Below, piece after piece: positions 3,263-59,424 of a stretch of 64,000 nucleotides of DNA. Position 1 is the first letter of the stretch; each line of letters starts with the position of its first letter. The position numbers and the translations under genes were made by a program. Where the stretch lies: contig OU612073.1 of NCBI GenBank assembly GCA_914767715.1, positions 558,001-622,000 of the forward strand. The letters are read 5' to 3'. Source of the DNA: Membranipora membranacea (Eukaryota; Bryozoa; Gymnolaemata; Cheilostomatida; Membraniporidae). Below the pieces are notes generated by a model. The model did no database searches, had not been told where the DNA came from, and was given only the letters and a program-made list of their open reading frames with translations.

Positions 3263-3284
3263 AGGGCCAAGCAGAGAACGCAGA

Positions 3285-3480
3285 GAACTTAAAACCTTCT
3301 ACAGCGACAGCCCCTCCCCGGCCGCTGCAGGAGGACTTAATCCCTTCTACAGTTACAGCCCCTTCTCAGGTCTGCAGGAGGACTTAAAACCTTCTACAGC
3401 GACAGCCCCTCCCCGGCCGCTGCAGGAGGACTTAATCCCTTCTACAGTTACAGCCCCTCCCCAGCCCTGCAGGATTTACC
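3285..3480. repeat. Short tandem repeat, about 4 units of 45-55 bp
   Basis: Copies of a unit of the form GGACTTAAAACCTTCTACAG followed by CGACAGCCCCTCCCC and GCTGCAGGA are repeated about four times, alternating between GCGACAG and AGTTACAG variants, so a longer two-unit period of about 110 bp is also visible. Unit B has a single unit at about 36128-36182, so the array expanded in A or collapsed in B. Confidence 0.75.
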
Positions 3481-8961: not shown

Positions 8962-10194
8962 GTAAATTATCTTATTGGTACCCTAATTATTTTATACTGT
9001 AAATGTGAACTCTTTTAAACATATAGTATGGCACACCTGACCTAGTCTTTCACTACCTTCAGGATGGTGGTTCAAATGAAGTATATCGAAAATTAAGTCA
9101 AATTCTACAATGTAGAATAAGCTTGTCAGGAATGACAGTATCTGTGTGTAGTCTTGTTATCTGACACACTTATGATGATAGTATGAGGAACAGACAGTGG
9201 GTGTGATATTGTAAAGCAAGTCATCTAGCAGGGCTGTATCCATGGGTTCAGAAATTGTAGGTCCAGGCGGGGTGGGTGCTGTGAGCCTTCCCGCCAGGGG
9301 GCATAGGGGCCTCGCTCAGAAAATTTTGAAAATTCAGAGGCAGTTTTAAGGCATTCCAGCCCTTTTGGAGCAGAAAATTGACAAAATAAAGTATATTGTC
9401 CTAGACAAGATTTTAGAGTAATAACAATCGTTTTTTGTGAGAAATTTTTCGTTGACATTCTGATTTTATTGACCACCACAGATAAGGCTTCTGGGATGAG
9501 ATGCCATGAACTAGTCAACATTGACATTAGACAATCTCATGGGGAATGGACGAGATAACTGATGAGTCCCCTCAAAATATCCGCACAACAGAAATAAGAA
9601 AAAGAAAGAAAAGAAAAAAGTTAATAAAATGCGTTAAAGAGTTAATAAATGCGGAGACACAACTCCAAATTACTAAAATATTCACTGTCAAATTGGAACT
9701 ATAATGGATGCGCTCACTATTCAATATTTGTTTTAAACTTTAAGTGATAGTTTCACAATGTATGATGGTAATTGGTCGTAATACTGCATATATTTACGAT
9801 GCTGTAGATTGAATGCTATCATCTTAAAAATGAATGTCTTATACTTATAATGAATCAGCTGATCTTGTGGTTGGGGACATCCCTCTTTTGTTAACTGTTT
9901 ACAAACAGCTACTACATAGTGATTTGTGGTTGCATAATGAATGCTATAAATCATCCTTTGATGTATGCGGTAGTAGAGCTATTGACAGTGATCAGGGTGC
10001 ACAATACACTGTTGCATTCAATAACTTTATCATGCATGCTCAGATTTTTTTGAAAGTTCTCATGATGAGGTATAACTTACTTGCAGGGCTGGACCCTTAC
10101 CGTACCCCAAATTTAGCACAGGCTACATGATAAACCATGATAAATTTGTGTTCGACAAGAGGAGATAACTCTTATTTAAAACAGGGCACAGAAA

Positions 10195-10231
10195 AGTGTC
10201 AGATGTCGTGTAATACACGACATCTGACACT
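10195..10231. repeat. Perfect 18-bp inverted repeat with 1-nt spacer
   Basis: Arms AGTGTCAGATGTCGTGTA and TACACGACATCTGACACT are exact reverse complements separated by a single A. It is present unchanged in unit B (about 43261-43297). It lies inside the hAT element and may be the trace of a palindromic end or double-strand-break repair. Confidence 0.9.
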
Positions 10232-10644
10232 CATCTACAGCAGTATTATTCAAGTATTTCAGGTTGGTTAACAATGAAGAGAAATAAACTAGTTTTCTAT
10301 CATCACCCGACCAAAATACATACAGAGGAAAGCACAAAATGTTAGGTAACCTAAAGTCAGGGGGGTATCCTTCAACTTTTGGTTGGTAGGGCCAAGCGGC
10401 CACACAACCCAGCTGGGGGGTTTGGGGGGCGCTGTAAGCCCCCCAACGGGGTCAGGGGCGGAGCCCCGGAAGCCAGAGCTTTTAAGGCGAAATTATCGCA
10501 CAAGAACACTATTATTTGCATTACAAGGCCATCTTCTGGTTTGGGTTTATGTTTGAGTTTTATTGTAACTGTCTATACCAATTATTCTTTATATTATGCC
10601 AACAAAAATATTGATATATCCATAACTATCGAAACGACCAAGCC

Positions 10645-11298
10645 TTACTTATACACCGCAATGGAACTTTCTCTACTTGGATGACACTGAACAAAATCTC
10701 TGATGACAGATTGAATGTCCAGTGTATCCGTTTTGTTCTTGTGAACATGTAGCAGTAATATATGTTTTATTCTATCCTGCATCATTGATGTACGCCCAGC
10801 TGTCTTGAGCCTACTGAGAGCAAAGAATGAGCGCTCACTAGACGCATTTGTGGCGGGTAACACTACAATCAGTTTCAAAATTTTGAATATGATAGGATAT
10901 AATGACTTGTTTATTATGAGGTTATTTTTATAAGACGCTATCACAGTTGTGATATCGTCTTTCACAATGTCGTCGTCCTTCTTATAAACCCTCAATTCGG
11001 CCTCAAGATCAAAGCTATCAAAGCCATAAGCATCACATATTGTGGATGTGGGTGTGGCAGGATTTGCACCAGAGCAAAGGAGCAACTCGATCTGCAAGAG
11101 CAATTCGATGCCCTTCTGCTCGAACCTGGCTTTGATGCCGTTTATGGCCTGGTCAAAAACCTCCATATAAAGCTGGTGACTTTTCTCTTTTATGGATAAC
11201 ATCACACCAGTCCCATTACAGTCGTCTAACCGGACAGGTGTCCTTCTCACTCGGCCTTCCTTTGGCGGATCAACATCTGACAAATATACACAGAGCAC
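10645..11298 (-). CDS. hAT transposase, C-terminal fragment (217 codons open)
   Basis: The C-terminal half contains LKLIVVLPATNASSERSFFA followed by SRLKTAGRTSMMQDRIKHIL and LLLHVHKNKTD, which is the hAT dimerisation domain signature (P-x-x-x-A-x-S-E-R-x-F, then L-R-x-x-M and the L-x-L-L-x-x-H helix). The N-terminal half (RRTPVRLDD, MEVFDQAINGIKARFEQKGI) resembles the region after the TTF-type zinc finger in ZMYM/P52rIPK-like hAT transposases. The frame begins with a GTG and is open further upstream to about 11360, then hits a stop, so the zinc finger and catalytic N-terminal part are missing. Almost identical to the copy at 43711-44364. Confidence 0.85.
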   Translation of the reverse strand: MLCVYLSDVDPPKEGRVRRTPVRLDDCNGTGVMLSIKEKSHQLYMEVFDQAINGIKARFEQKGIELLLQIELLLCSGANPATPTSTICDAYGFDSFDLEAELRVYKKDDDIVKDDITTVIASYKNNLIINKSLYPIIFKILKLIVVLPATNASSERSFFALSRLKTAGRTSMMQDRIKHILLLHVHKNKTDTLDIQSVIRDFVQCHPSRESSIAVYK

Positions 11299-12476
11299 AG
11301 CTTTTATCGTGAGGTTGATGAAACAATGCCATATAGCATAAGCTTGGTAGCAATTTATTGATTACGCCACATGAAGTTGAACAATGACACCAAATTCTGG
11401 CTATCCTTACAACTACTCTCCTAAGCATTGACATGTCTATCAATTTGTGCTATTAGCTGAATCCCATGAGGCAGCATGGATAGTTACATCCTCGATGCCG
11501 GGGCACTTCTGCTCAGTTGGACAGGGAGGGTAACTTTCCACTTACATTTGAATCTATTGTCCAATGGATCTGCCAACAGTAAACTCTCAACCTCACTTTG
11601 GTTGGTTAGTCTAGAGAAGATGTGGAAAATGAACTCAGTCTCAGTGTGGGCATAATTTGGTAGGAATAGGAAGGAACTGCCAGTTTAGTCATGAAAATTT
11701 TTGCTTTGCATGTACCAGCTCACCTGTAGATGAATGCTTGAAGCTTTTTCCTTGCAGAACTTGCAGAAGTTGCTTTAAATAAGCTGGATGTATCCTCCAT
11801 TTTTGCAACAACTTTATAAGAATGCCTATATGCCTTATATGACCTTAACCTGATCATGGTTGTTTGTTCTGCTTATTAGTGCTGAATCCAAACAGTGATC
11901 GAAGCAATAACACATGTAATGTTAAACCAAGTATTTTTCCTGTATAAGCCGACCATGGGCTATACTTACTCAGTTACATGGCTATTATAGTGAGATGTGA
12001 TTTGAGAATATGGTTATGATATTTGTCTATTGTGCCCTGAGGGCGTTATGGTCCGGTAAAATTACATATCTTCATGTAACCAGATCTACATTTACCATAA
12101 AATACCACATAATGTCCCAAACTATCAGACCAAATTTATTGCACAAAATATTTGGAGTTGTTTTTGTTATCATGCGGCATATAAGATGATAATCTGTATA
12201 AGAAGAAAATGCACCGTAAACTGACATGGAAAAATGAGAACTTTTGGAATTACATCAAATACCTAAATGGTTAGGCTTGCTGGAAGTTGAGCAAATAACA
12301 ATCAAACCAAGCAGTATTAATTTAGTATTTCAGGTTGGTTAAAAATAAATGGGCTCCATTTAATGAAAAGCCCAGATTGACGGAAACAAAAGTACCTGAT
12401 ATTTTCATGTTTTTATCTCACTCTCAGGATTCCTCACCTATATATACATTGTGTATAATGTGATGTTATATTGTAG

Positions 12477-12617
12477 ATTATCACAGTTAGATCGGCTTCA
12501 GGTGCTGGATATAAGTGAGAATAGTGCACTAGGAGCTGTACCAGAGGTAGTGTATAATCTGACACAACTTACTGAGCTGAGACTAGAGGGGTGTGGGATC
12601 ACAGAGATAAGTGACAG
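12477..12617 (+). CDS. LRR cassette exon A1
   Basis: 141 nt, flanked by TTGTAG acceptor and GACAG/GTATGT donor, phase 2 at both ends, so it can be skipped or repeated without breaking the frame. Encodes 47 residues, two leucine-rich repeats: LDRLQVLDI-SENSA-LGAVPEVVYNL and TQLTEL-RLEG-CGITEISD. The variable beta-strand residues are SENSA and RLEG. Confidence 0.88.
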
Positions 12618-13287
12618 GTATGTGAGAGTATCTTATACAGTCAGATAGTATACTTATATATCATCATGGTTGTTTGTTCTGCTTATTAGTGCTGAATCCA
12701 AACAGTGATCGAAGCAATAACACATGTAATGTTAAACCAAGTATTTTTCTTGTATACGCCGACCATGGGCTATACTTACTCAGTTACATGGCTATAATAG
12801 TGAGATGTGATTTGAGAATATGGTTATGATATTTGTCTATTATGCCCTGAGGGCGTTATGGTCCGGTAAAATTACATATCTTCATGTAACCAGAGCTACA
12901 TTTACCATAAAATACCACATAAAGTCCCAAATTATCAGACCAAATTTATTGCACAAAATATTTGGAGTTGTTTTTGTTATCATGCGGCATATAAGATGAT
13001 AATCTGTATATAGAAGAAAATGCACCGTAAACTGACATGGAAAAATGAGAACTTTTGGAATTACATCAAATACCTAAATGGTTAGGCTTGCTGGAAGTTG
13101 AGCAAATAACAATCAAACCAAGCAGTATTAATTTAGTATTTCAGGTTGGTTAAAAATAAATGGGCTCCATTTAATGAAAAGCCCAGATTGACGGAAACAA
13201 AAGTACCTGATATTTTCATGTTTTTATCTCACTCTCAGGATTCCTCACCTATATATACATTGTGTATAATGTGATGTTATATTGTAG

Positions 13288-13428
13288 ATTATCACAGTTA
13301 GATCGGCTTCAGGTGCTGGATATAAGTGAGAATAGTGCACTAGGAGCTGTACCAGAGGTAGTGTATAATCTGACACAACTTACTGAGCTGAGACTAGAGG
13401 GGTGTGGGATCACAGAGATAAGTGACAG
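13288..13428 (+). CDS. LRR cassette exon A2
   Basis: Identical to cassette A1 over its 141 nt, including the variable residues SENSA and RLEG. A1 and A2 are therefore the youngest duplication or a recently converted pair. Phase 2-2. Confidence 0.88.
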
Positions 13429-14098
13429 GTATGTGAGAGTATCTTATACAGTCAGATAGTATACTTATATATCATCATGGTTGTTTGTTCTGCTTATTAG
13501 TGCTGAATCCAAACAGTGATCGAAGCAATAACACATGTAATGTTAAACCAAGTATTTTTCTTGTATACGCCGACCATGGGCTATACTTACTCAGTTACAT
13601 GGCTATAATAGTGAGATGTGATTTGAGAATATGGTTATGATATTTGTCTATTATGCCCTGAGGGCGTTATGGTCCGGTAAAATTACATATCTTCATGTAA
13701 CCAGAGCTACATTTACCATAAAATACCACATAAAGTCCCAAATTATCAGACCAAATTTATTGCACAAAATATTTGGAGTTGTTTTTGTTATCATGCGGCA
13801 TATAAGATGATAATCTGTATATAGAAGAAAATGCACCGTAAACTGACATGGAAAAATGAGAACTTTTGGAATTACATCAAATACCTAAATGGTTAGGCTT
13901 GCTGGAAGTTGAGCAAATAACAATCAAACCAAGCAGTATTAATTTAGTATTTCAGGTTGGTTAAAAATAAATGGGCTCCATTTAATGAAAAGCCCAGATT
14001 GACGGAAACAAAAGTACCTGATATTTTCATGTTTTTATCTCACTCTCAGGATTCCTCACCTATATATACATTGTGTATAACGTGATGTTATATTGTAG

Positions 14099-14239
14099 AT
14101 TATCACAGTTGGATCAGCTTCAGGTGCTGGACATCAGTTTTCACAGGGAACTAGGAGCTGTACCGGAGGGAGTGTATAATCTGACACAACTTACTGAGCT
14201 TAGAATGTATGACTGTGGGATCACAGAGATAAGTGACAG
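14099..14239 (+). CDS. LRR cassette exon A3
   Basis: Same framework as A1 but first-strand residues SFHRE and second-strand residues RMYD, and VPEG instead of VPEV. The flanking introns match those of A1 and A2 almost base for base, so change is concentrated inside the exon. Phase 2-2. Confidence 0.88.
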
Positions 14240-14907
14240 GTATGTGAGAGTATCTTATACAGTCAGATAGTATACTTATATATCATCATGGTTGTTTGTT
14301 CTGCTTATTAGTGCTGAATCCAAACAGTGATCGAAGCAATAACACATGTAATGTTAAACCAAGTATTTTTCTTGTATAAGCCGACCATGGGCTATACTTA
14401 CTCAGTTACATGGCTATTATAGTGAGATGTGATTTGAGAATATGGTTATGATATTTGTCTATTATGCCCTGAGGGCGTTATGGTCCGGTAAAATTACATA
14501 TCTTCATGTAACCAGATCTACATTTACCATAAAATACCACATAATGTCCCAAACTATCAGACCAAATTTATTGCACAAAATATTTGGAGTTGTTTTTGTT
14601 ATCATGCGGCATATAAGATGATAATCTGTATATAGAAGAAAATGCACCGTAAACTGACATGGAAAAATGAGAACTTTTGGAATTACATCAAATACCTAAA
14701 TGGTTAGGCTTGCTGGAAGTTGAGCAAATAACAATCAAACCAAGCAGTATTAATTTAGTATTTCAGGTTGGTTAAAAATAAATGGGCTCCATTTAATGAA
14801 AAGCCCAGATTGACGGAAACAAAAGTACCAGATATTTTCATGTTTTTATCTCATACTCAGTATTCCTCACATATATACATTGTGTATGACGTGATGTTTT
14901 ATTGTAG

Positions 14908-15048
14908 ATTATCACAGTTAGATCAGCTCAAGATGCTGGACATCGCTGGTAACATTGACCTAGGAGCTGTACCGGAGGTAGTGTATAATATGACACAACT
15001 TACTGAGCTGAGAATGTGGGGGTGTGGGATCACAGAGATAAGTGACAG
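14908..15048 (+). CDS. LRR cassette exon A4
   Basis: Variable residues AGNID and RMWG; framework differences are LKML for LQVL and YNMTQ for YNLTQ. Last cassette before the long intron that leads to the LRR-Roc exon. Phase 2-2. Confidence 0.88.
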
Positions 15049-17416
15049 GTATGTGAGAGTATCTTATACAGTCAGATAGTACATTTATATATCATTATGA
15101 TTCTTGATTTTGTATTAGCTTAGCCTGAGCTGTATTTTCTCCTATACCCGGCTGTGAATAATATGGAAATATTCCCTGATGGCAAGTTTCACCGTATCAC
15201 ATTTTTTGCAAACCAGATTTAAATTTACCCTTAGACACCCATCTATTCAAAATATAAACAAAATATTTGTGTGTGCAAAATTATTAGGAGTTGTCTCATA
15301 TTTATCACAGATACTTCATAAACGATCACAGATACTTCACTCTTTATTCAATATTAATATTAGAGAATATAGTTGTCACATCATGAACCAGTGATATCAT
15401 GAATAGCTTATTCGCTTTCGGCCCATCGTTATCAATAGCTGTGTACAGGTGCTTAGTTGGCTATTTATCTTGTTAGTTCTATTTCAGTATATCAATTATT
15501 GTTAGTATTGTAATCAAAATCATCGCTCAGGCCAAGCAATAAAAATCTCGAAGCCCAACCTTTCCATTCTTGATAAAATACCTCTTTTTTTTTATTGGAA
15601 TTTTATCATAACATGAACGTGAATTTAATGCCATCACGAATAATTTCAGGCAGCTCTGTCATGTGATATATGGTTATGCGGTTGATGTAGCCTCCAGTTT
15701 TTATCTTCCAGTCAGACAGTCATTACCACTATGCCTTGACTTCATTACAGCCCTCCGTACAGTTGTTCTCTTTGTTGTGTCCTGCCGCGATTTCAGATCA
15801 GTCTCTCAGTTTTTTTATGTATCGTTAAGTTGCATCCTTATATCTGGGCCTAGGTCTAACCTGACTTTCCCTCTCATGGCTTTGGGAGTACAGTTTATGT
15901 CCAGGAAGCCGAACATTGTTCATCAAGTTTACGTCGGAACGATCTCAGCTTTCTCTCTATGAGAATGAAATAAGCTATACCAGACAGGAAGGCATTGGAG
16001 CACAATCCACGGTCTCAATATACCTTATCTTATCACATCATCCGGTATTCGTCACGCCTCTCAGTTCTCTCATCATGTAGGCATTTTGCTTCTTAACTTG
16101 TGTCCTCTATATCGTCCAGCCTTCATCTCCATGTATATATACGTATATATGATATATACATCGCCTTATACTCAACGCTGTGTATCTTTGGCTCTGGTGG
16201 CAACAACGCACTGTCATCAGTAAAAAACATCTCTCTTACTAGAATAGGTATCTGGCGGGGGGGGGGGGGGGGCGAGCTATTGTCTTGTAGCAGTGAGACA
16301 CTAAAGAGATCTGCCTAATGCATTGTTCTGTATGCGAATCCCTTCTTGTGTATCCTTAAATGCAAATTTTAGTTCAGTGTAAGCTGGTTAATTTCGGACT
16401 TCATAATTGGGAACTCCCGTTGATTCAAACAATGAAAATTGGTCCCTCCAGCCAGATGTCAGTGCATTCTATTGTCACTTAATTCAGACTCGGCTTAATT
16501 AGGCCGTATTTTTGTGGTCTCCAGAGGTTTGAATAAAGTGAACTGCACTGCATAGCTGTCAGATATATTCACAATAGTGTGGATGCGAGCAATCCTTATA
16601 GCTCAACACCACAGCAAAATCTTAGGAGGGAACTCTTGAGGGTACCTAAGTTCTACAATAATGGTAAAAGTTAATGTATATTTGTAATGTGACAATTTGA
16701 GCACTAAATTTAATTTAACCAATGCACAATACAGGGTATGGATATAAGTGATCATATTAAATTATTTTGAGATTTGGGATTTACTACTATTGTAGCGATT
16801 TATACACAGAATTAAAACTGGCTTACACATACTACACTACACTAATAAATAAATTAAGTTTGTGATACATTTGGCTTTAATTGTTTTACACATTTTTTGG
16901 GAAAGTTGAGTCTCTCTACTATCTTCTGCCTGGATAGATATATATGTATATAATATGATCAATTTGTTTGTCCTTGTTTGGGGTCTGCTCATTGTCAGCC
17001 CAAATGTCGTTTTAATCCAGAAAAGTCACTGAATTTAGGTCAAGATCTAGGTCTAACCTTATATTTTCAGAATGAAATATTATCACAGGTTATTGCTTGA
17101 ATAGATATTATAGTGTTTATATAAATATAGCTGTGGTTTTCATGCACTCTTTTGGGATATTGAATTTGATTATGATACCTCAATGTCTTTAGGTATTCCT
17201 CACGTATAGAGGGGTTAATTCATATCCCATTGGCATCCTTTATTGTTTGGTGGGTGTTGCACATGTGGCAATGATGATATCAATATTGTGAACACCAAGA
17301 ACATAAATCAGTAATCACTTGAGTAAAAATATTAAATAAACCAGGAATACCATAAAAACAAATATAGTTTTGAAATGTGTAAATCTACCCTGAATAAGTA
17401 TTGTATTGTATTGTAG
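15049..17416 (+). other. Long intron before the LRR-Roc exon (unit A)
   Basis: No supported exon. Contains a run of about 17 G at 16256-16272 that is only GGGG in unit B, and A-only DNA at about 16540-16975. An open stretch at 15663-15962 is conserved in B (50200-50499) but the whole intron is equally conserved, so it is not evidence of coding. Confidence 0.6.
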
Positions 17417-19429
17417 ATTGTCAGATCTCACTGAGCTTGAGGAACTGCATATAGGAGGGAATGAGTTCATCACACTCCCTACAGCAATTCTCAAATTAAC
17501 GAAACTGAAGACACTGTACCTTGGCTTTAACAGGAGTCTGCAGTCATTAGATCCCCGTCTGTTACTTCTACCTGCTCTGGAGAAGCTGGACTGTGTATAC
17601 TGTGAAGCTCTGACATCTCCACCTTATGCAGTCTGTCAGCAGGGTCTGCAGGCTGTAAAACAGTATTACACAGATCTCAAACAAACAGGAGGAATAAAAC
17701 TTCTAATAGTCTCTGCTGCAGTGATAGGAAACAGGATGGCAGGTAAAACTAGTCTGATAAACAGTCTGAAAGCCCGAGAACGTAAACTCACGTATCGTAA
17801 CACGGAGGGAGAGTATGATGACACAACAGAGGTGTTCAAAATAGAAGAGATTGAAATGGGAGATTCACAGTTAAAGATCTTTGACTTTGGAGGTGACAGA
17901 ATATATCACTTGACGTATGTTATTACAATCCGTAATAATTACATTCCAATAGTCGTTGTGAATATGGAAGAGTTTGATCAGCTATCTACGTCTAAGGGTT
18001 GTAAGGAAGCAGTGAGAATTTTAGCACTAGACTACATATCTCACCTTTATACATCAAGCCCTCGGCTTGACTCTCCCTTCGTTGTTCTCACACACAAAGA
18101 CAAACTCAGCCCTGCAAAGTTTGAAAGCAGAGCAACTGAGCTCTCTGATTCTCTCAAAACGCTCTGTTCAGAAATGATGGAGGAGGAAAGGCACTTCTCA
18201 AAAGGAAAATCCGAGTTTTGCAAAATTCTTATCTTCTCAAAGGACAAGCAAATTATCTCCCCTCAAGATATATTCACACTGGGCCAGGATGATGTAAACA
18301 ATGAGGTCATCCTTCGCATTCTCTGTCAGCTTCAGATGAGAGCAGAACCATTCTTCACTACCATCCCCAAACTTTGGGAGCTTCTTCTTCTATTCTTTGA
18401 CAGTATGGCACATTTGCCATTCATTCTTCTTGTTGAGGTGAAACAGAGATTCCCTGGTGATGCCGGCTTCACAGTGCTACGCTACATGCATAACATTGGT
18501 AGAATTCTGTGGTTTGAACATGATGAGATCTTGAGAGGATTTGTTTTCCATAAGCTGACAGAGGTGACGGACATGATCGCTTTACTGTTTCATCACAGGT
18601 CAGCTGACCTATGGAAGTCTCATATCAATGCTCAGCCAAACTTCATCTCATTTGAAAATGAAATGATACAAAAGAGCAAGTATCAAAAGCTTGTAAGAGA
18701 GTTTATACAGACAGGAGTTATCGACGAAGCTGTGCTGGTCACGGTGATCAGTAGTAGAAGTTTTCCCCGCGAACCGGCCATAATCACTACTAAAGTCATT
18801 CAAACTACTGTGTGGACCTATTCATACATCACCGCGGAACACATACATTGTTCCATACTTCTCTAAAGGCTCAATGGATCTGATCCCAACAGACATCAAG
18901 CTGCTTCAGCTACGTGTAGACATTTCATTCAAAGGTCTGTCCCCTCCCTCTTATATATACAGCCTACTCACCTGCCAGTTTCTAGCTCCATTCACAGACC
19001 CCGGTCTTCGGCTTAGAACGGCTAAGAACGGAGCCATGGTACATCATGGTAACACAGTGAGTCGAGTAGTGCACAGCAGTAGAGACCGTAAGGTTAGTGT
19101 ACTCGTAGACACCCCAGCAGCACATATAGATTCCTCCTGGAAACAACTGATTGACCACACAGACTCTATCATCAATCACCTGCTCTCTATCTGGGTCGCA
19201 GCTCGACCTATATGTGAGTTCTACTGTGCTCACTGTCTGTATCTACACGAGTCTGAGCCTGAGATAGAAGTAGATCCAGACTGGTATTCTCCTCTGAACC
19301 ACAATGAGAGGGATAAGCCTCTATCTCACCTGCTGAGAAGACTGCCTTCTAATGCTGACCCTGTGAGCTGCTGTAACGACCAAACGAATGGTGGACAACT
19401 CCGAGTACCAAGACCTCTGAGGTTTCCAT
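17417..19429 (+). CDS. ROCO-caspase gene A: LRR-Roc-COR exon(s)
   Basis: After a TATTGTAG acceptor (phase 2) about 75 residues form three more leucine-rich repeats (NEFITLPTAILKLTKLKTL; LLLLPALEKL). A Roc GTPase follows: P-loop GNRMAGKTS at 17727-17753, switch motif DFGG at 17883-17894, and THKD (G4 position) at 18090-18101, as in LRRK-type Roc domains. A COR domain follows (LRYMHNIGRILWFEHDE, LRGFVFHKLTEVTDMIALLF). The frame ends at 18866 but the COR clearly continues in another frame (PRNTYIVPYFSKGSMDL). This is either a one-base frameshift near 18781-18795 or a 52-nt intron 18744-18795 (ACG/GTGATC ... CTAAAG/TCATTC) that restores frame. Exon ends CCAT/GTAAGT at 19429 (phase 1). Role: GTP-switched dimeric signalling module. 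Confidence 0.88.
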
Positions 19430-19686
19430 GTAAGTACGCAGATCAAACACAAACTTTGTTACCAATACAAAATTGTTTTTTCTGATATTTCATGATGAAA
19501 AAGGTAATTATCAGCAAAATGGAATTTTTGTTCTCTTATTTGAATAAATCCCTCTGATTTCTGGTTAACACATTTTTTCGATTGCAGATATATAAAACCT
19601 TGCTAGGATTTGCCATCTGTTGTGACTTCCAATTGATTCAATCATTTGGTTAGAGAAATATGACAGTGTAATTTTTTCTCTGATAG

Positions 19687-20381: not shown

Positions 20382-20965
20382 ATGAGATATAAGATGACTA
20401 AGACAAGAGGTCGAGCTCTCATATTATCTAATAAGTATGAGTACACTAATCAACGAGGTCAACAAGTCTGGAGAGCGGGTGCTGACATTGATCATGAGAA
20501 TATGAAGAATATGCTGGAGAACTTTGGGTTTGTTGTGAATGGAGAGTATAAAAACTACACTTCAGAGGTAACCCATTCAATATAATCCATTACTATAATG
20601 TGAACAAGAAATGCACCAGATTGAAAGATTGAGCTTTCATGTATTTCACGGAACCCGGCAACATTATTCATGAAGGCTGTCACATTCCCTCAATTTTCTT
20701 ATAAAATAAACATGTTTGTTTATAAAGGATATGGTGACCGAGATTCACAGAGAGACCCAGCTGGTAGACCAGACAGGCCAGTCGGTATACAAAGATCTAG
20801 GAATGTTTGTACTGGTTATCACTAGTCATGGCGCTGAAGGAACTGTTGTCGGATCTGATCACAAACACATCAAACTCACTGATATCTATCAGTCATTATC
20901 TGCTCAAAACTTCCCGGCTATGAAAGGAAAACCAAAACTCCTAATAATACAAGCCTGTGCCGGAG
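20382..20965 (+). CDS. ROCO-caspase gene A: caspase p20 exons
   Basis: Exons 20382-20567 (phase 0-0) and 20728-20965 (phase 0 to 1). First exon: KTRGRALILSNKYEYTNQRG, ADIDHENMKNMLENFGFVV, the start of a caspase p20 (strand 1, R-G loop, D-x-x-N-M-x-x-x-L-x-x-x-G-F). Second exon: YKDLGMFVLVITSHGAEGTV with the catalytic His at 20827-20829, and KPKLLIIQACAGG with the catalytic Cys at 20956-20958. The pentapeptide is QACAG rather than the usual QACRG, losing the Arg next to the catalytic Cys. Both catalytic residues are present, so protease activity is plausible. This is the effector part of a single LRR-Roc-COR-caspase polypeptide, since all exon phases are compatible. Confidence 0.9.
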
Positions 20966-21212
20966 GTTAGTACGTCTGCTACAATTAAAGAATTATGACA
21001 AGCAGAAACAACAGGTACTGTTTGTATCTGACATCAATGTAACATAACCAACAATGCAAATCCTTGAGACAGAAGTTAGAATCTATCATAATTATTATTA
21101 TTATTATTATCATATAATTATTGCCGACATGTTATGAGCTATCAGACGTTTTGTACCAACAATGTCTCATCAATATTTCGTGTCATATCCTGTGATGAAT
21201 TTCTATTTGCAG

Positions 21213-21775
21213 TTAACAGAGAGATGATGACAGACTCGATAAATGACACAGCTGTTGATCAGCAGTATAACAGACAGGAGGTGACATCACAGACAGCAGA
21301 TTATGGACATGTAGACTCAGAGCCCAGTGATATCTCTGTGGCTAATCTGTTTGTCATGCAAGCAAGCTTTGATAGTAAGTGACATCTGAGCCTATCTGCC
21401 ACAGACTGAAAGTTTACCGCCTTTTCACAGCAGTATAGATGCAAAATCTCAAAAAAGAAGAGGGATGAGTTTGCACATTGCGGATTATCATCTCTCAGAA
21501 TTTTTGTGAAATATTTCCTAAACTAGTACCCTTTTGATTGTTCAGTTCAGTTGTACAAGTTAATATAAACTGACTCAAAACTGTTGATATCACATTCAAC
21601 TGTTATTCTATACATCTCTTTGATATGTTCAATCATTCTAATCTGTTGAAAATTTTCCTCTTCAGCATTTGTGTCAATAAGATCGACAGATTTGGGATCT
21701 CAATTCATCAGAGCTGTGGTTGTGACTTTCTACAAGTATGCTCATAAACAACACCTACAGACTCTGGGGAATATG
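21213..21775 (+). CDS. ROCO-caspase gene A: inter-subunit linker and p10 start
   Basis: Exons 21213-21374 (TTGCAG acceptor, phase 1-1) and 21666-21775 (TTCAG acceptor, ATG/GTAAGT donor, phase 1 to 0). The first gives the linker (VNREMMTDSINDTAVDQQYN, DYGHVDSEPSDISVANLF) with several aspartates suitable for autoprocessing. The second gives FVSIRSTDLGSQFIRAVVVT, matching the p10 core S-x-R-x-x-x-x-G-S-x-F, followed by the helix YKYAHKQHLQTLGNM. Confidence 0.85.
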
Positions 21776-23895: not shown

Positions 23896-23940
23896 GTGCT
23901 TCTTACTCAGACATGATCACACTGAGCTATCAGATATAGG

Positions 23941-24770
23941 AATATGCTGGCGAACTTTGGGTTTGTTGTGAATGGAGAGTGTAAAAACTACTCATCACAG
24001 GTAAAACCATGCACATTGTATTTTATTTATTTGTCACTTTCGGTAATTTTAGAGAATCACCCCTATAATCAAACTTTTTTAAGTTGCTCTAAGTTAATCT
24101 AAGAGCTTTTATGTCGTTTCACAAGAACTGCCAAATACCATTGATGTATGTTTGTATGTATGTTTGTATTTTTGTTCCTCCTAAAATCGACAGTGCGATG
24201 TACCGGAGTGAATTCCACTAGAAAAACAAAATTAAGTCAGTAAAATACATCTGCGAGCACTTGTTTTTTGGTGTGAGGAGTTATCTTCCTACGCTTCACG
24301 TGTACATACTTGTTCTTACTAACGACAGCCCTACCTATGAATATTGAATACAGCACAGTGGTCATTCTCATTACCTACTAAAGAAGGTAATTTTACAGGC
24401 GCAGGGTATTTAGCATTTGTAAGAATCTGATCTAGTGTATGGACACCCCTGGTGGCAAAATTGATACATGGCATAAGGTTGAACTCAGAACAGAAAAATT
24501 CTAGTGGAATTCTATTGAAATCACCTACTAGTAGGATTTTGCTATTGGTATACTTGATGAAGCCTGTCCCCGTCACTGATTTGTGTATATAAATGTACAT
24601 GTCGTTAATAAAGGATATAGTGACATAGATTCACAGAGACACTCAGCTGGTAGTCCAGACGGGCCAGTCGGTATACAAAGATCTAGGAATGTTTGTACTG
24701 GTTATAACAAGTCATGGTGCAGAAGGGACTGTGATGGGATCCCACACAGGATTGACTGAAATGCGGAAAT
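23941..24770 (+). pseudogene. Broken caspase exon copies from a ROCO-caspase paralogue
   Basis: Two fragments related to p20 exons of the gene just upstream. 23941-24002 encodes NMLANFGFVVNGECKNYSSQ and still ends at CAG/GTAAAA. 24615-24770 matches the second p20 exon (GQSVYKDLGMFVLVITSHG, catalytic His retained) but has an in-frame TAG after D-I-V-T and loses homology before the catalytic Cys. Between them lies unrelated DNA including a LINE endonuclease relic. It is the residue of a partial local duplication; the region is absent from unit B. Confidence 0.85.
24331..24600 (-). pseudogene. LINE apurinic endonuclease domain fragment
   Basis: Minus-strand frame of 89 codons with SKILLVGDFNRIPLEFF, FATRGVHTLDQILTN and GNENDHCAVFNI. 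These are the GDFN, TRG-x-x-x-LD and SDH-like (here NDH) motifs of the AP-endonuclease domain of non-LTR retrotransposons. The Ser of the SDH motif is replaced by Asn; no neighbouring reverse transcriptase in the same orientation was seen. Confidence 0.8.
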
Positions 24771-42294: not shown

Positions 42295-45200
42295 AGGGCT
42301 GTATCCATGGGTTTAGAAATTGTAGGTCCAGGCGGGGTGGGTGCTGTGAGCCTTCCCGCCAGGGGGCATAGGGGGCCTCGCTCAGAAAATTTTCAAAAAT
42401 CAGAGGCAGTTTTAAGGCATTCCAGCCCTTTTGGAGCGCAAAATTGACAAAATAAAGTATATTGTCCTAGACAAGATTTTAGAGTAATAACAATCGTTTT
42501 TTGTGAGAAATTTTTCGTTGACATTCTGATTTTATTGACCACCACAGATAAGGCTTCTGGGATGAGATGCCATGAACTAGTCAACATTGACATTAGACAA
42601 TCTCATGGGGAATGGACGAGATAACTGATGAGTCCCCTCAAAATATCCGCACATTAGAAATAAGAAAAAGAAAGAAAAGAAAAAAGTTAATAAAATGCGT
42701 TAAAGAGTTAATAAATGCGGAGACACAACTCCAAATTACTAAAATATTCACTGTCAAATTGGAACTATAATGGATGCGCTCACTATTCAATATTTGTTTT
42801 AAACTTTAAGTGATAGTTTCACAATGTATGATGGTAATTGGTCGTAATACTGCATATATTTACGATGCTGTAGATTGAATGCTATCATCTTAAAAATGAA
42901 TGTCTTATACTTATAATGAATCAGCTGATCTTGTGGTTGGGGACATCCCTCTTTTGTTTACTGTTTACAAACAGCTACTACATAGTGATTTGTGGTTGCA
43001 TAATGAATGCTATAAATCATCCTTTGATGTATGCGGTAGTAGAGCTATTGACAGTGATCAGGGTGCACAATACACTGTTGCATTCAATAACTTTATCATG
43101 CATGCTCAGATTTTTTTGAAAGTTCTCATGATGAGGTATAACTTACTTGCAGGGCTGGACCCTTACCGTACCCCAAATTTAGCACAGGCTACATGATAAA
43201 CCATGATAAATTTGTGTTCGACAAGAGGAGATAACTCTTATTTAAAACAGGGCACAGAAAAGTGTCAGATGTCGTGTAATACACGACATCTGACACTCAT
43301 CTACAGCAGTATTATTCAAGTATTTCAGGTTGGTTAACAATGAAGAGAAATAAACTAGTTTTCTATCATCACCCGACCAAAATACATACAGAGGAAAGCA
43401 CAAAATGTTAGGTAACCTAAAGTCAGGGGGGTATCCTTCAACTTTTGGTTGGTAGGGCCAAGCGGCCACACAACCCAGCTGGGGGGTTTGGGGGGCGCTG
43501 TAAGCCCCCCAACGGGGTCAGGGGCGGAGCCCCGGAAGCCAGAGCTTTTAAGGCGAAATTATCGCACAAGAACACTATTATTTGCATTACAAGGCCATCT
43601 TCTGGTTTGGGTTTATGTTTGAGTTTTATTGTAACTGTCTATACCAATTATTCTTTATATTATGCCAACAAAAATATTGATATATCCATAACTATCGAAA
43701 CGACCAAGCCTTACTTATACACCGCAATGGAACTTTCTCTACTTGGATGACACTGAACAAAATCTCTGATGACAGATTGAATGTCCAGTGTATCCGTTTT
43801 GTTCTTGTGAACATGTAGCAGTAATATATGTTTTATTCTATCCTGCATCATTGATGTACGCCCAGCTGTCTTGAGCCTACTGAGAGCAAAGAATGAGCGC
43901 TCACTAGACGCATTTGTGGCGGGTAACACTACAATCAGTTTCAAAATTTTGAATATGATAGGATATAATGACTTGTTTATTATTAGGTTATTTTTATAAG
44001 ACGCTATCACAGTTGTGATATCGTCTTTCACAATGTCATGGTCCTTCTTATAAACCCTCAATTCGGCCTCAAGATCAAAGCTATCAAAGCCATAAGCATC
44101 ACATATTGTGGATGTGGGTGTGGCAGGATTTGCACCAGAGCAAAGGAGCAACTCGATCTGCAAGAGCAATTCGATGCCCTTCTGCTCGAACCTGGCTTTG
44201 ATGCCGTTTATGGCCTGGTCAAAAACCTCCATATAAAGCTGGTGACTTTTCTCTTTTATGGATAACATCACACCAGTCCCATTACAGTCGTCTAACCGGA
44301 CAGGTGTCCTTCTCACTCGGCCTTCCTTTGGCGGATCAACATCTGACAAATATACACAGACCACAGCTTTTATCGTGAGGTTGATGAAACAATGCCATAT
44401 AGCATTAGCTTGGTAGCAATTTATTGATTACGCCACATGAAGTTGAACAATGACACCAAATTCTGGCTATCCTTACAACTACTCTCCTAAGCATTGACAT
44501 GTCTATCAATTTGTGCTATTAGCTGAATCCCATGAGGCAGCATGGATAGTTACATCCTTGATGCCTGGGCACTTCTGCTCAGTTGGACAGGGAGGGTAAC
44601 TTTCCACTTACATTTGAATCTATTGTCCAATGGATCTGCCAACAGTAAACTCTCAACCTCACTTTGGTTGGTTAGTCTAGAGAAGATGTGGAAAATGAAC
44701 TCAGTCTCAGTGTGGGCATAATTTGGTAGGAATAGGAAGGAACTGCCAGTTTAGTCATGAAAATTTTTGCTTTGCATGTACCAGCTCACCTGTAGATGAA
44801 TGCTTGAAGCTTTTTCCTTGCAGAACTTGCAGAAGTTGCTTTAAATAAGCTGGATGTATCCTCCATTCTTGCAACAACTTTATAAGAATGCCTTTATATG
44901 ACCTTAACCTGACCATGAGCTCTTTACATAACAATGTTGATAATAGACCGATGAAATTCATTAGCTATCATTGAGGGCTTTGGGAAATCCAAAGTTAGCC
45001 CTAAATACCTAGCAGTTGGATAAATAAACTGGGTGATGGGTTGATGGGGATTGATGGGGGTTGATGGGGATGGGTGATGGGTTGTACTTCACTCTAAGCA
45101 AATGATCATGTCTGATCAGTGAGAGGAAATAAGCTAATGTTATTGTCATGTTGTCATTAAACTGAGTGATTATGAAAAATTGTGTAAGGGGGTCGTATGT

Positions 45201-45397: not shown

Positions 45398-45538
45398 ATT
45401 ATCACAGTTAGATCAGCTTCAGGTGCTAGATATAAGTCGTAACCCTGCACTAGGAGCTGTACCAGAGGTAGTGTATAATCTGACACAACTTACTAAGCTG
45501 GATATGAGTTATTGTGGGATCACAGAGATAAGTGACAG
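45398..45538 (+). CDS. LRR cassette exon B1
   Basis: 141 nt, phase 2-2, two LRRs. Variable residues SRNPA in the first strand; second strand has TKLDMSYCGI, the only cassette with K-L-D instead of E-L-R. Confidence 0.86.
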
Positions 45539-46237: not shown

Positions 46238-46378
46238 ATTATCACAGTTAGATCAGCTTCAGGCGCTGGATATAGGTAATAACCCATTACTGGGAGCTGT
46301 ACCGGAGGTAGTGTATAATCTGACACAACTTACTGAGCTGAGACTGGAGAGGTGTGGGATCACAGAGATAAGTGACAG
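46238..46378 (+). CDS. LRR cassette exon B2
   Basis: 141 nt, phase 2-2. Variable residues GNNPL and RLER; framework LQALDI instead of LQVLDI. Confidence 0.86.
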
Positions 46379-46982: not shown

Positions 46983-47123
46983 ATTATCACAGTTAGATCA
47001 GCTCAAGGTGCTGGACATCGGTTATAACGGTGACCTAGGTGCTGTACCAGAGGGAGTGTATAATCTGACACAACTTACTGAGCTGAGAATGCCGATGTGT
47101 GGGATCACAGAGATAAGTGACAG
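46983..47123 (+). CDS. LRR cassette exon B3
   Basis: 141 nt, phase 2-2. Variable residues GYNGD and RMPM. Differs from B4 almost only in the codons for MPM versus LWD. Confidence 0.86.
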
Positions 47124-47795: not shown

Positions 47796-47936
47796 ATTAT
47801 CACAGTTAGATCAGCTCAAGGTGCTGGACATCGGTTATAACGGTGACCTAGGAGCTGTACCAGAGGGAGTGTATAATCTGACACAACTTACTGAGCTGAG
47901 ACTGTGGGACTGTGGGATCACAGAGATAAGTGACAG
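47796..47936 (+). CDS. LRR cassette exon B4
   Basis: 141 nt, phase 2-2. Variable residues GYNGD and RLWD. Six of nine bases differ from B3 in the block encoding MPM versus LWD, while the rest of the exon differs by one silent change. Confidence 0.86.
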
Positions 47937-48621: not shown

Positions 48622-48762
48622 ATTATCACAGTTAGATCAGCTCAAGGTGCTGGATATATCGAGTAACCCTGCATTAGGAGCTGTACCAGAGGGAGTGTAT
48701 AATCTGACACAACTTACTGAGCTGAGAATGCGTGACTGTGGGATCACAGAGATAAGTGACAG
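48622..48762 (+). CDS. LRR cassette exon B5
   Basis: 141 nt, phase 2-2. Variable residues SSNPA and RMRD. Confidence 0.86.
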
Positions 48763-49444: not shown

Positions 49445-49585
49445 ATTATCACAGTTAGATCAGCTCAAGGTGCTGAATATCAGTTATAACCGTGCACTAG
49501 GAGCTGTACCAGAGGTAGTGTATAATCTGACACAACTTACTGAGCTGAGAATGCGTGACTGTGGGATCACAGAGATAAGTGACAG
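49445..49585 (+). CDS. LRR cassette exon B6
   Basis: 141 nt, phase 2-2. Variable residues SYNRA and RMRD; LKVLNI for LKVLDI. Last cassette before the long intron, positionally equivalent to A4. Confidence 0.86.
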
Positions 49586-51503: not shown

Positions 51504-52632
51504 ATTGTCAGATCTCACAGAGCTTGAGGTACTGGAAATAGCATGGAATGAGTTCATCACACTCCCTACAGCAATTCTCAAATTGACTAAACTGAAGACA
51601 CTGGTCCTTGTGAATAACAAAAGTCTGCAGTCATTAGATTCCCGTCTGTTACTTCTACCTGCTCTAAAGAAGCTGGAATGCAGAGGTTGTGAAGCTCTGA
51701 TATATCCACCTTATGCAGTCTGTCAGCAGGGTCTGCAGGCTGTAAAACAGTATTACACAGATCTCGAACAAACAGGAGGAACAAAACTTCCTATAGTCTC
51801 TGCTGCAGTGATAGGAAACAGGATGGCAGGTAAAACTAGTCTGATAAACAGTCTGAAAGCCCGAGAACGTAAACTCACGTATCGTAACAAGGAGGGAGAG
51901 TATGATGACACAACAGAGGTGTTCAAAATAGAAGAGATTGAAATGGGAGATTCACAGTTAAAGATCTTTGACTTTGGAGGTGACAGAATATATCACTTGA
52001 CGTATGTTATTACAATCCGTAGTAATTACATTCCAATAGTCGTTGTGAATATGGAAGAGTTTGATCAGCTATCTACGTCTAAGGGTTGTAAGGAAGCAGT
52101 GAGAATTTTAGCACTAGACTACATATCTCACCTTTATACATCAAGCCCTCGGCTTGACTCTCCCTTCGTTGTTCTCACACACAAAGACAAACTCAGCCCT
52201 GCAAAGTTTGAAAGCAGAGCAACTGAGCTCTCTGATTCTCTCAAAACGCTCTGTTCAGAAATGATGGAGGAGGAAAGGCACTTCTCAAAAGGAAAATCCG
52301 AGTTTTGCAAAATTCTTATCTTCTCAAAGGACAAGCAAATTATCTCCCCTCAAGATATATTCACACTGGGCCAGGATGATGTAAACAATGAGGTCATCCT
52401 TCGCATTCTCTGTCAGCTTCAGATGAGAGCAGAACCATTCTTCACTACCATCCCCAAACTTTGGGAGCTTCTTCTTCTATTCTTTGACAGTATGGCACAT
52501 TTGCCATTCATTCTTTTTGTTGAGGTGAAACAGAGATTCCCTGGTGATGCCGGCTTCACAGTGCGCATTAATAAAGGTGCTACGGGCCGCCATAGTATGG
52601 CGGCCCGTAGCACCTTTATTAATGCGCATTAA
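51504..52632 (+). CDS. ROCO gene B: LRR-Roc exon truncated in COR
   Basis: Acceptor TATTGTAG, then LRRs, Roc (GNRMAGKTS, DFGG, THKD all intact) and the start of COR up to PGDAGFTV, where homology with A ends at 52562. The frame runs 23 codons into the inverted-repeat end of a DNA element and stops at 52630-52632. The rest of COR and the whole caspase are absent from unit B. The LRR part differs from A at many exposed residues (HIGG/EIAW, YLGFNR/VLVNNK, DCVYC/ECRGC), the Roc part at very few. It could encode a receptor without an effector, or be a dying copy. Confidence 0.85.
52563..52627. repeat. Perfect 32-bp palindrome of two element ends
   Basis: 52563-52594 is the exact reverse complement of 52596-52627, with one G between. 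The right arm is the left terminus of the large element; the left arm is therefore a stray inverted terminus facing it. It sits precisely at the break in the COR sequence. Confidence 0.92.
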
Positions 52633-53310
52633 TTAACATGCTAACTCGCTAAGTCGCTAATGCGCATTAGTTAACATGCTAACTCGCTAACTCGCTAATG
52701 TGCATTAATTAACATGCTAACTCACTAACTCGCAGTTAAACCTGTTTTGGGTAATGACTGTATTATCAAAGATGGGCTTTGTGATAGGCACTTACACCAC
52801 TACCATACCTGCCATGACCCTGGAACTATTTCAAACTACTTACATGGGAGATTGTGAGATGCCAATTCTTCTTGATCAATCATTGAGTCAATGAGTCAAT
52901 GTCTTAGGTCTGTTGTATTATTATTTACATCACATGTTGGTCATGTGATCGCACTCTTATGTGGAGGATACAAATGGATTGTGGCTCTTTGGTTTTGGAG
53001 TTAGTTAGTGGATCACCATGAGGAGCCTGAAGCAGACAAATTAATGAAGAAACTTATACATAGATAGTTAAATGAGTTAGGGCTGGCCAGCTATAAAGAA
53101 CCACAAGAAGAACACTTACCAGGTAACATTACTTTACAGCAAGGTATCACTCACTCATTTTGGCCAAAGTTGCATGCATGGATAGCCATGGATTTACATG
53201 CAACAGCCCATGGGAATGGGTCTTGATGGATGGCCCTAGCCTAGACTGCTCTGCAATCTTTCTATCCAACCCACAGGTCTACTCCAAAACCTGGGATTTC
53301 ACTCCAAAAT

Positions 53311-53512: not shown

Positions 53513-53755
53513 TATGCGCAGTTCTAAGAATGCGCAGTTTTAAGAATGCGCAGTTTTAAGAATGCGCAGTTTTAAGAATGCGCAGTTTTAAGAATGCGCA
53601 GTTTTAAGAATGCGCAGTTTTAAGAATGCGCAGTTTTAAGAATGCGCAGTTCTAAGAATGCGCAGTTCTAGAAATGCGCAGTTATAACAATGCGCATTTC
53701 TAACAATGCGCAGTTCTAGCAATGCGCATTTATAATAATGTGCAATGTTTTGTGT
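53513..53755. repeat. 16-bp minisatellite, about 15 copies
   Basis: Unit AATGCGCAGTTTTAAG repeated head to tail; copies toward the right end vary (AGTTCTAG, AGTTATAAC, ATTTCTAAC). The core TGCGCA is self-complementary and also forms the centre of the terminal subrepeats (AATGCGCATT). Confidence 0.95.
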
Positions 53756-58178: not shown

Positions 58179-59424
58179 TCAAGACAGTGATAGCCCGCAC
58201 ATGCATAAAGACAGACCCAAAAATATTTCTGGAAATCTTTAATCTCTTAATGCGCATTAGCGAGTTAGCGAGTTAGCATGTTAACTAATGCGCATTAGCG
58301 ACTTAGCGAGTTAGCATGTTAGCTAATGCGCATTAATAAAGGTGCTATGGGCCGCCATACCTTACGACACCTGCTGTGTGGCAATGATAGCCTAGTTTAT
58401 CAGTGATCTACATGCCCAGTCAGATCACGAGAGTCAGTATGAAATAACGCTGATGTTGATCGTCACATATTGGATGGAAATTCAAAACATCGAGGAATTA
58501 CTCCCTGGAAAAATCAAAGGAGTAAAAGGTTTACTCCTTAAAATTTTGGACGTGTCCCAAGCTCCCTGCTGTTACACAAATCAAAAATGTCCCATCCTCA
58601 GATCGCGATAAACATTAAATCGACGACAAAATGCTTACAATGTGGCGTCTGGAGACCGTATTCAAAATATATTTGCGTCATTTGGTCGTATAGACCGTTC
58701 CATATAAGATAAAGTTGTAAGTACTATTCCAACTAATCGCTCACCTTTGCTGATTCACAAAAGGTTTGAAACACATTTTATTTAGCTGCAAATCTCTTCA
58801 AGACATTTTTTTAAAAGTTAATATAAATATTACTTAAACCGTTCTTCAACATGCACTAGAACCGGAAATCATGCTATATATCGGTGAGTACATTTCTGCT
58901 TCTCTTTATCTCCCATAGACTTAGTATAGTTTATTTAGGTAAAAGTATCACCCAATATAGCCATTAGCCTATTTTGTCAAGCTTTGTTCGTTGGGTGTCA
59001 AGACAGGCTACACCCAATATATAGGAGGCATGTGATGATAAAAGATTATTTAATAAGAACTACAGATGAAAGATTAGTTGTGCACCATTAGATACTTTGC
59101 TGAATCTCCAGTATACCTATGAAGGGTTTAATCTAACATTAGGCTATCGATAATCAGCATAATCCAGTAAAATGTTAATGAGTGTATTGAATGAGTAAAA
59201 GTTACCTGTGACGCTACAAGTATCACGTCCATTGTTGATATCTGCACCATGCTATTACAAGGGAATTCTATTAAGGTAAGAAATTTATTTTACCGTATAT
59301 GTTCAAAGAAATAATGTACAGGGCCTCTTTAATCTGCTCGATTCTCAGGAACAAACTTCTTTCTTGACTTTAAATTTGAGCGGATTACTTGTATTTGAAA
59401 TGGCAATAATTGGTCTGAACGAAT

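Follow-up and report, generated by a model that had tools for sequence, protein, structure and literature searches.

Two hypervariable patches in the tandem LRR exon cassettes of a candidate recognition gene cluster in Membranipora membranacea

How can tandem exons differ sharply at a few codons while many of the introns between them remain almost alike? This question is raised by a 64,000-nucleotide stretch of the genome of the bryozoan Membranipora membranacea (C9:558001-622000, contig OU612073.1, in an assembly of 339 Mb and 18 contigs), hereafter the window, to which all positions refer unless C9 or C2 is named. The window has a eukaryotic gene structure with AG/GT introns, and its two halves repeat one another in matching blocks that are ~29.5 to 34.5 kb apart and 82 to 98% identical. 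Each half carries a run of 141-bp leucine-rich repeat (LRR) exons in phase 2/2, followed by a terminal LRR exon that also bears a Roc GTPase domain. We consider it probable (roughly 85%) that the short exons are the recognition cassettes of a small LRR-Roc(-COR-like)-caspase gene cluster, shaped by diversifying selection together with unequal crossing-over and short-tract conversion. All of the evidence is sequence from one genome assembly of a single species.

Array A contains four cassettes (A1, 12477-12617; A2, 13288-13428; A3, 14099-14239; and A4, the final one, 14908-15048) and array B contains six (B1, 45398-45538; B2, 46238-46378; B3, 46983-47123; B4, 47796-47936; B5, 48622-48762; and B6, the final one, 49445-49585), all on the forward strand. 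The original prediction, which had been made from the letters of the window, described ten cassettes with a common framework and listed the residues of their variable patches. We found all ten open over 47 codons, with AG/GT splice ends, the shared framework, and every listed string; the count of ten thus stands, but A1 and A2 have the same sequence, so only nine cassettes are distinct. Each exon is one cassette encoding two LRRs of ~23 residues apiece, and since both of its introns are in phase 2, units can be gained or lost without breaking the reading frame. Given that the introns following A1 and A2 differ at only 1 of 670 positions, this pair most likely reflects one recent duplication of the unit. 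The predicted 811-bp repeat unit applies to array A only (spacings of 811, 811, and 809 bp), whereas spacings in array B range from 745 to 840 bp. Similarly, the introns had been described as near identical. This is true of array A, whose three full introns (670, 670, and 668 bp, within 12618-14907) are 0.1 to 1.8% apart, and of B2-B3 and B3-B4 (0.1 to 2.3% apart over this whole group), but not of the other three of the five B introns: B4-B5 and B5-B6 are 5 to 7% from the group and 1.5% from each other, and B1-B2 is 12 to 15% from every other window intron. A partial intron lies 5' of A1 (11853-12476, forward strand) and starts abruptly within the intron repeat.

Variation among the ten exons is concentrated in two patches, codons 14-18 and codons 36-39 (12514-12528 and 12580-12591 in A1). 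Codons 14, 15, 17, 18, 38, and 39 vary most and codons 36 and 37 less so, and there is no variation at all at codons 26-28, 30-33, and 40-47. The six most variable codons, which were picked after the data had been seen, differ at 437 of 810 bases (0.54) over the 45 window pairs, compared with 0.060 for the introns; the unequal substitution density that had been anticipated is therefore present. The other exon bases differ at 351 of 5535 (0.063). The variable bases exceeded the introns in 44 of the 45 pairs, the exception being A1/A2 with its identical exons, and in many pairs with divergent introns the remaining exon was not above the introns in divergence. A2 and B3 illustrate the contrast: their flanking introns differ at 14 of 1272 positions and their exons at 20 of 141, 10 of the 20 falling within the 18 variable bases (one-sided Fisher test, 2e-14 for variable bases versus introns and 1e-5 for the remaining exon versus introns). 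Silent sites of the framework were raised as well (0.13 silent substitutions per silent site, dS), which had not been foreseen.

A genome-wide DNA search with the cassette returned 40 matches, which is a lower bound, and a protein search gave the same 40 the top places (150 of 435 candidates scored, 88 matches, these counts again being lower bounds). Thirty-six of the cassettes belong to six gene copies within 224 kb (C9:416-640 kb), ordered C, D, E, A, B, F and holding 7, 10, 5, 4, 6, and 4 cassettes, respectively; the remaining four matches are at C9 238-241 kb and C2 809-812 kb. All 36 array cassettes are open and have AG/GTATGT ends. Since the six copies are ordered on one contig and have unlike cassette numbers, A and B do not simply represent a pair of haplotypes, and we rejected a two-haplotype assembly artefact. 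A donor library of pseudo-cassettes was also rejected: beyond the 40 places, the protein search with its lower-bound counts yielded only exons at ≤52% identity, none with stops. One cassette, D4 (C9 472725-472889), is longer by 24 in-frame bases at patch 1, and loop length therefore varies as well. D4 was left out of all codon counts, and the duplicates A2 and D1 were left out of the sets called distinct.

Across the family, the 35 equal-length cassettes encode 13 different amino acids at codon 15 and likewise 13 at codon 38. The seven patch codons (14, 15, 17, 18, 36, 38, and 39) are variable at every one of their 21 bases, 11 of which show all four states, whereas 42 of the 120 framework bases are variable and 35 of these 42 have just two states. 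In 595 cassette pairs, divergence is 51% of bases at the six variable codons and 6% in the framework; that of the introns is 7.5% (435 pairs). The canonical pattern of exposed LRR residues is xxLxLxx. Ten cassette codons defined a priori by this pattern, albeit after the window codon table and the A/B differences were known, had a ratio of nonsynonymous to synonymous proportions of differences (pN/pS) of 1.46 among the 33 distinct cassettes; the ratio was 2.40 at the two codons following the conserved Asn and 0.38 at the other 35 codons, outside the patches and the a priori sites. In the patch codons, chosen after the data had been seen, pN was 0.552 and pS was 0.296. For the same 33 cassettes, codon model M2a beat M1a (2dlnL: exon tree, 142; star tree, 294). 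For the per-codon ratio of nonsynonymous to silent substitution rates (dN/dS), the check proposed with the original prediction, both trees placed codons 14, 15, 17, 18, 38, and 39 in a class with an omega of 6.6 (exon tree) or 8.3 (star tree), although the optimiser was simple and, given recombination as well, these values are approximate.

The terminal LRR exon, which the original prediction had not used, extends these observations. Over its six copies, 15 xxLxLxx codons, which follow the canonical pattern but were fixed after the A/B differences had been seen, had a pN/pS of 3.76, and the other 54 codons had a pN/pS of 0.30. For Roc codons 70-360, pN/pS was 0.42 in the five copies without C and 0.73 once the divergent copy C was included. 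Relaxed constraint in dead copies was rejected as the whole cause because pN/pS is 0.38 at the other 35 cassette codons and all 36 cassettes are open. Diversifying selection on the exposed LRR residues is therefore supported, both by the cassettes and by the terminal exon.

Might the patches instead be struck by targeted mutation, that is, a mutator acting on them in the germline or in somatic cells while selection merely filters the products? Such a mutator would be compatible with the variation of every patch-codon base, often through all four bases, and with the 32 of 69 patch codon states that are private to a single cassette. It would also fit the recent changes in one pair of cassettes from genes C and D, C3/D6. 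Taken together, five positional C/D pairs (C1/D1, C2/D5, C3/D6, C4/D7, and C5/D8, of which C2/D5 has a matching intron only downstream) show 23 differences in 705 exon bases, compared with 14 in 3534 for the five C/D introns that are near identical; C6/D9 (18/141) and C7/D10 (20/141), between which the introns are 46/667 apart, were excluded from this sum. In C3/D6, all four changed bases are nonsynonymous and lie in codons 18, 37, and 38, in or beside the patches, and the flanking introns differ at 1/682 and 3/683. The D6 states at these differences are absent from all other cassettes, which implies that new mutation adds to exchange. Silent sites show a gradient around the patches (pS of 0.296 within them, 0.227 at 1 to 2 codons, 0.105 at 3 to 6, and 0.018 at ≥7), and a mutator could raise those nearby. 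Finally, the exon has 8 private silent bases over ~34.5 silent sites, a somewhat higher density than that of private bases in the introns (95 over 671 columns of a 26-intron set that leaves out E1-E2, B1-B2, C1-C2, and D1-D2), which would fit either older exons or a raised rate. Yet the variable framework columns are mostly biallelic at intermediate frequency, such as CTC/CTT at codon 8 (20/13) and ATA/ATC at codon 13 (14/19), and look like old retained variation; pN exceeds pS in the patches as chosen above; and no donor or template copy was found beyond the 40 open cassettes, a lower-bound count. Of the three processes that had been proposed, diversifying selection and segmental exchange thus hold up, whereas targeted mutation is not required by a framework in which 35 of 42 variable columns are two-state, and we regard it as unlikely.

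Selection and exchange are both needed, because the silent sites around the patches are elevated as well. In the ten closest pairs, divergence is 0.8% in the introns, compared with 9.6% at silent sites of the framework and 43% at nonsynonymous sites of the patches. When 253 pairs were placed in four bins of flanking-intron divergence (means of 0.8%, 4%, 6%, and 10%), patch nonsynonymous divergence was 0.43 to 0.56 throughout and framework silent divergence was 0.10 to 0.13 in every bin. Exons and introns are thus decoupled, whereas duplication with selection only would leave exon silent sites as divergent as introns; this mismatch supports exchange among the cassettes. Selection on point mutations alone after a recent duplication, without exchange between cassettes, would explain pN/pS values above 1 at exposed codons and why certain very recent changes, those of C3/D6, alter the protein and are private, but this decoupling makes it insufficient. 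It also fails to predict the behavior of the two patches, whose pairwise distances show no correlation with each other (rho -0.01; P = 0.55 by permutation): identical patch 2 sequences are shared among C6, B1, and F1, and likewise among C5, D8, B5, and B6, with differing patches 1 (C5 and D8 are positional copies). Array D provides a further case in its internal repeat, D2-5 versus D6-9, whose three inner introns differ at 4/683, 4/872, and 3/639 (0.5 to 0.6%). D3 and D7, near identical on both flanks, differ at 21/141 exon positions, and D4 and D8, also near identical on both flanks, differ by an indel and more; D2/D6 (9/141) and D5/D9 (16/141) have a near-identical flank on one side only.

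Divergence between A and B is also a mosaic, which again is not what selection alone would leave. It is 0 to 1.5% over 10001-11800, 0 to 0.5% over 15308-15907, and 4 to 7% over 15908-16534; the terminal LRR exon opens with two 100-bp steps at 9% and 19%, and the figure for 17718-18477 in Roc is 3/760. Gene C (C9 423538-425535) has cassettes and introns near identical to those of D at several positions, yet its Roc part is only 74.6% identical to that of A, compared with 93% for D. The gene copies therefore look like mosaics, with C a clear chimera. Taken together, these results make selection without exchange very improbable and suggest that the exchange proceeds by conversion and crossing-over. 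The converse idea, in which the introns are the odd part and functionally constrained while the exons show normal copy age, would suit closer pairs, in which silent sites of the exons have diverged more than the introns, and the 4 to 7% A/B divergence of some flank outside the arrays (15908-16534), but it is the hardest to sustain, because other A/B flanks outside the arrays (10001-11800 and 15308-15907), though unrelated in sequence, match each other as well as the array introns do and because silent sites ≥7 codons from the patches are nearly invariant, which makes the patches the outliers.

What kind of protein would carry these cassettes? Pfam LRR_4, LRR_8, and LRR_14 scored above the cut-off on the joined A3, A4, and terminal exons, and the LRR exons matched 280 distinct PDB sequences; the 60 listed are mostly named LRR proteins. 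A structure prediction for a single cassette had a mean predicted local distance difference test score (pLDDT) of 50.7, too poor for use beyond weak strands at 10-12 and 34-36. In gene A, the terminal LRR and Roc exon spans 17417-18866 (forward strand), and its reading frame, open to 18866, then changes in this copy. The stretch that continues the terminal exon in C, D, E, and F corresponds to 18865-19431 (forward strand) in A; it is in the position of a COR-like domain and alone has no Pfam match. The Roc domain (PF08477) was detected in all six terminal exons (27.5 to 33.7 bits; cut-off, 27), whereas COR-A (PF16095) occurred at a consistent place in all four intact exons at 12.8 to 16.3 bits, below the cut-off of 35.3. 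The terminal exon also has a weak PDB match to 3dpu, which is listed as 'Rab family protein' and which we take to be a Roco protein. NACHT, NB-ARC, and WD40 had no match in the scanned exons; these do not include the 5' exons of the genes, none of which was found.

Downstream in gene A, four exons (20382-20567, 20728-20967, 21212-21379, and 21668-21775, forward strand, with approximate splice ends) matched Peptidase_C14 (PF00656) at 3e-28 when joined at guessed splice ends. They contain SHG and QACAGG, presumably the catalytic His and Cys motifs of C14. The main caspase exon downstream of C, D, and E is 97.5 to 98.8% identical to that of A, so that four of the six gene copies have a close caspase domain; the match in F is at just 54%, and B has no caspase part downstream. 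A second caspase-like copy follows the main caspase exon, ~4 to 6 kb further downstream, in A (23938-24763), C (C9 432751-432987), D (C9 489588-489823), and E (C9 541908-542057), with a stop in E and A and a split between frames in D. C, D, E, and F are open through the entire terminal exon. In copy A, the spacing from Roc to the following part (18477-18866) is out of frame, unlike in those four copies, which may mark either a pseudogene or an assembly error. Copy B is truncated at an inverted-repeat stretch, since its terminal LRR and Roc exon (51504-52564, forward strand) is homologous to that of A only as far as 52564. At 52564-52740, this palindromic stretch is followed by 38-bp tandem units, and a related 38-bp unit is found near 58250.

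These features suggest a mechanism in which selection would favor change at the exposed xxLxLxx residues and the loop after the first strand (codons 14, 15, 17, 18, 36, 38, and 39), with the exposed strand residues contacting a ligand so that variants are favored. Unequal crossing-over through the long introns would alter the number (4 to 10 per gene) and order of the cassettes. Short conversion tracts within and between the six copies would keep introns and framework uniform and bring the two patches together in new pairings. With its Roc-caspase part, the protein may be an intracellular sensor coupled to a caspase, setting off cell death or some comparable response, and the driver could be non-self recognition, either of pathogens or in allorecognition.

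Several observations weigh against this account. Averaged over all 45 window pairs, framework and introns diverge alike (0.063 and 0.060). The a priori cassette codons reach a pN/pS of only 1.46, because the silent sites of those codons are raised too, and recombination breaks the single-tree assumption behind the M1a/M2a comparison. The Roc parts of A and B are separated by 6 nonsynonymous changes and 1 silent change, with no sign of constraint, and given the frame break in A and the truncation of B, part of the pattern lies in possibly dead genes. The exchange itself is deduced from decoupling and shared patches, and within array D the evidence from D2/D6 and D5/D9 is weaker because their outer introns have diverged (86/649 upstream of D2/D6 and 30/682 downstream of D5/D9).

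Distant exons at C9 2.27 and 2.45 Mb, 48 to 59% identical to the cassettes, form a second family that shares their 47-codon module and their phase. Eight of its 11 exons were used (one had another length, one an unfitting splice end, and one an incomplete match). They vary at codons 10, 12, 15, 17, 34, 36, and 39, among others, and most framework codons are invariant, although the contrast is weaker because the six introns of this family average 7.3% divergence. Elsewhere in the window, a C-terminal fragment of a hAT transposase lies 5' of both arrays on the reverse strand (10648-11361 and 43711-44427). Its A copy, the one scanned, matched Dimer_Tnp_hAT in Pfam at 2.5e-07, and B has a near-identical open reading frame. 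Tandem repeats were present at 53514-53744 and 3283-3474, made up of ~14 copies of a 16-bp unit and four copies of a 48-bp unit, respectively.

How do these genes compare with known systems? ROCO proteins, which include LRRK, DAPK, and bacterial Roco, have Roc followed by COR. The cassette genes resemble them in having Roc above the Pfam cut-off in the terminal exon but differ in that COR scores only below the cut-off, a caspase is present instead of a kinase, and the cassettes are hypervariable. Lamprey variable lymphocyte receptors (VLRs) draw their diversity at the concave face from LRR modules that are assembled somatically from donor cassettes. The cassette genes may be analogous in placing diversity at a concave LRR face through LRR modules; no donor library was seen among the 40 matches, a lower-bound count, and there is no sign of somatic assembly in this single genome assembly. 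Diversity-generating retroelements make adenine-specific changes copied from a template repeat beside a reverse transcriptase. The patch changes are not confined to a single base (11 of 21 columns have all four), and no extra template-like copy was seen among the 40 matches, again a lower bound.

Plant disease resistance clusters offer another comparison. In the coffee SH3 cluster of nucleotide-binding site (NBS)-LRR genes, positive selection was reported only in the x residues of xxLxLxx, along with conversion between clustered paralogues (PMC3113787), and the cassette genes appear to share both features. The plant genes have a central NBS domain and no caspase, and near-identical, intron-bearing LRR exon cassettes are not described in the part of that paper drawn on here. 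Among the literature covered, mostly titles and the opening lines of abstracts together with passages of PMC8195603, and with most subscription papers outside this scope, no animal LRR case of this kind was found.

The nearest known regime is that of the fungal HNWD receptors. In Podospora, the repeats of these NLRs (HNWD, het-d, and het-e) evolve in concert, both inside a gene and from one gene to another, while positive selection acts on four codons of each WD40 repeat (PMC1805685, PMC4986451; see also PMC12222747). The cassette genes share with them highly identical tandem repeats, concerted evolution, diversification of a few surface codons, and a presumed link to cell death, and their sequences suggest the same regime. 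Repeat number is polymorphic in HNWD; here, cassette number differs between gene copies of one genome. The two are nonetheless not members of one family: the fungal proteins combine WD40 (also TPR or ANK) repeats with NACHT and are described as being without LRR motifs (PMC4986451), while the cassette genes have LRRs, Roc, and caspase, with neither WD40 nor NACHT in the scanned exons. By the NACHT/NB-ARC criterion they are likewise not NLRs in those exons, which carry Roc instead, and unlike HNWD they devote one exon to each cassette, separated by introns of roughly 600 to 870 bp. It is tempting, though doubtful, to see here an LRR counterpart of the HNWD genes that is highly polymorphic between individuals, a specificity engine of the germline, and possibly of somatic cells too, in which cassettes recombine through long homologous introns, half-paratopes are reassorted, and Roc-caspase serves as a death switch. 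The locus is a concrete candidate for non-self recognition and a probable natural example of selection and gene conversion opposed within one exon, with the long flanking introns as an internal control. What sets it apart from the systems above is the combination of an LRR-exon cassette and homogenised introns with a Roc-caspase body. A regime known from fungal WD, TPR, and ANK receptors, and partly from plant LRRs, would thereby extend to LRR genes that are built of exon cassettes and linked to a caspase.

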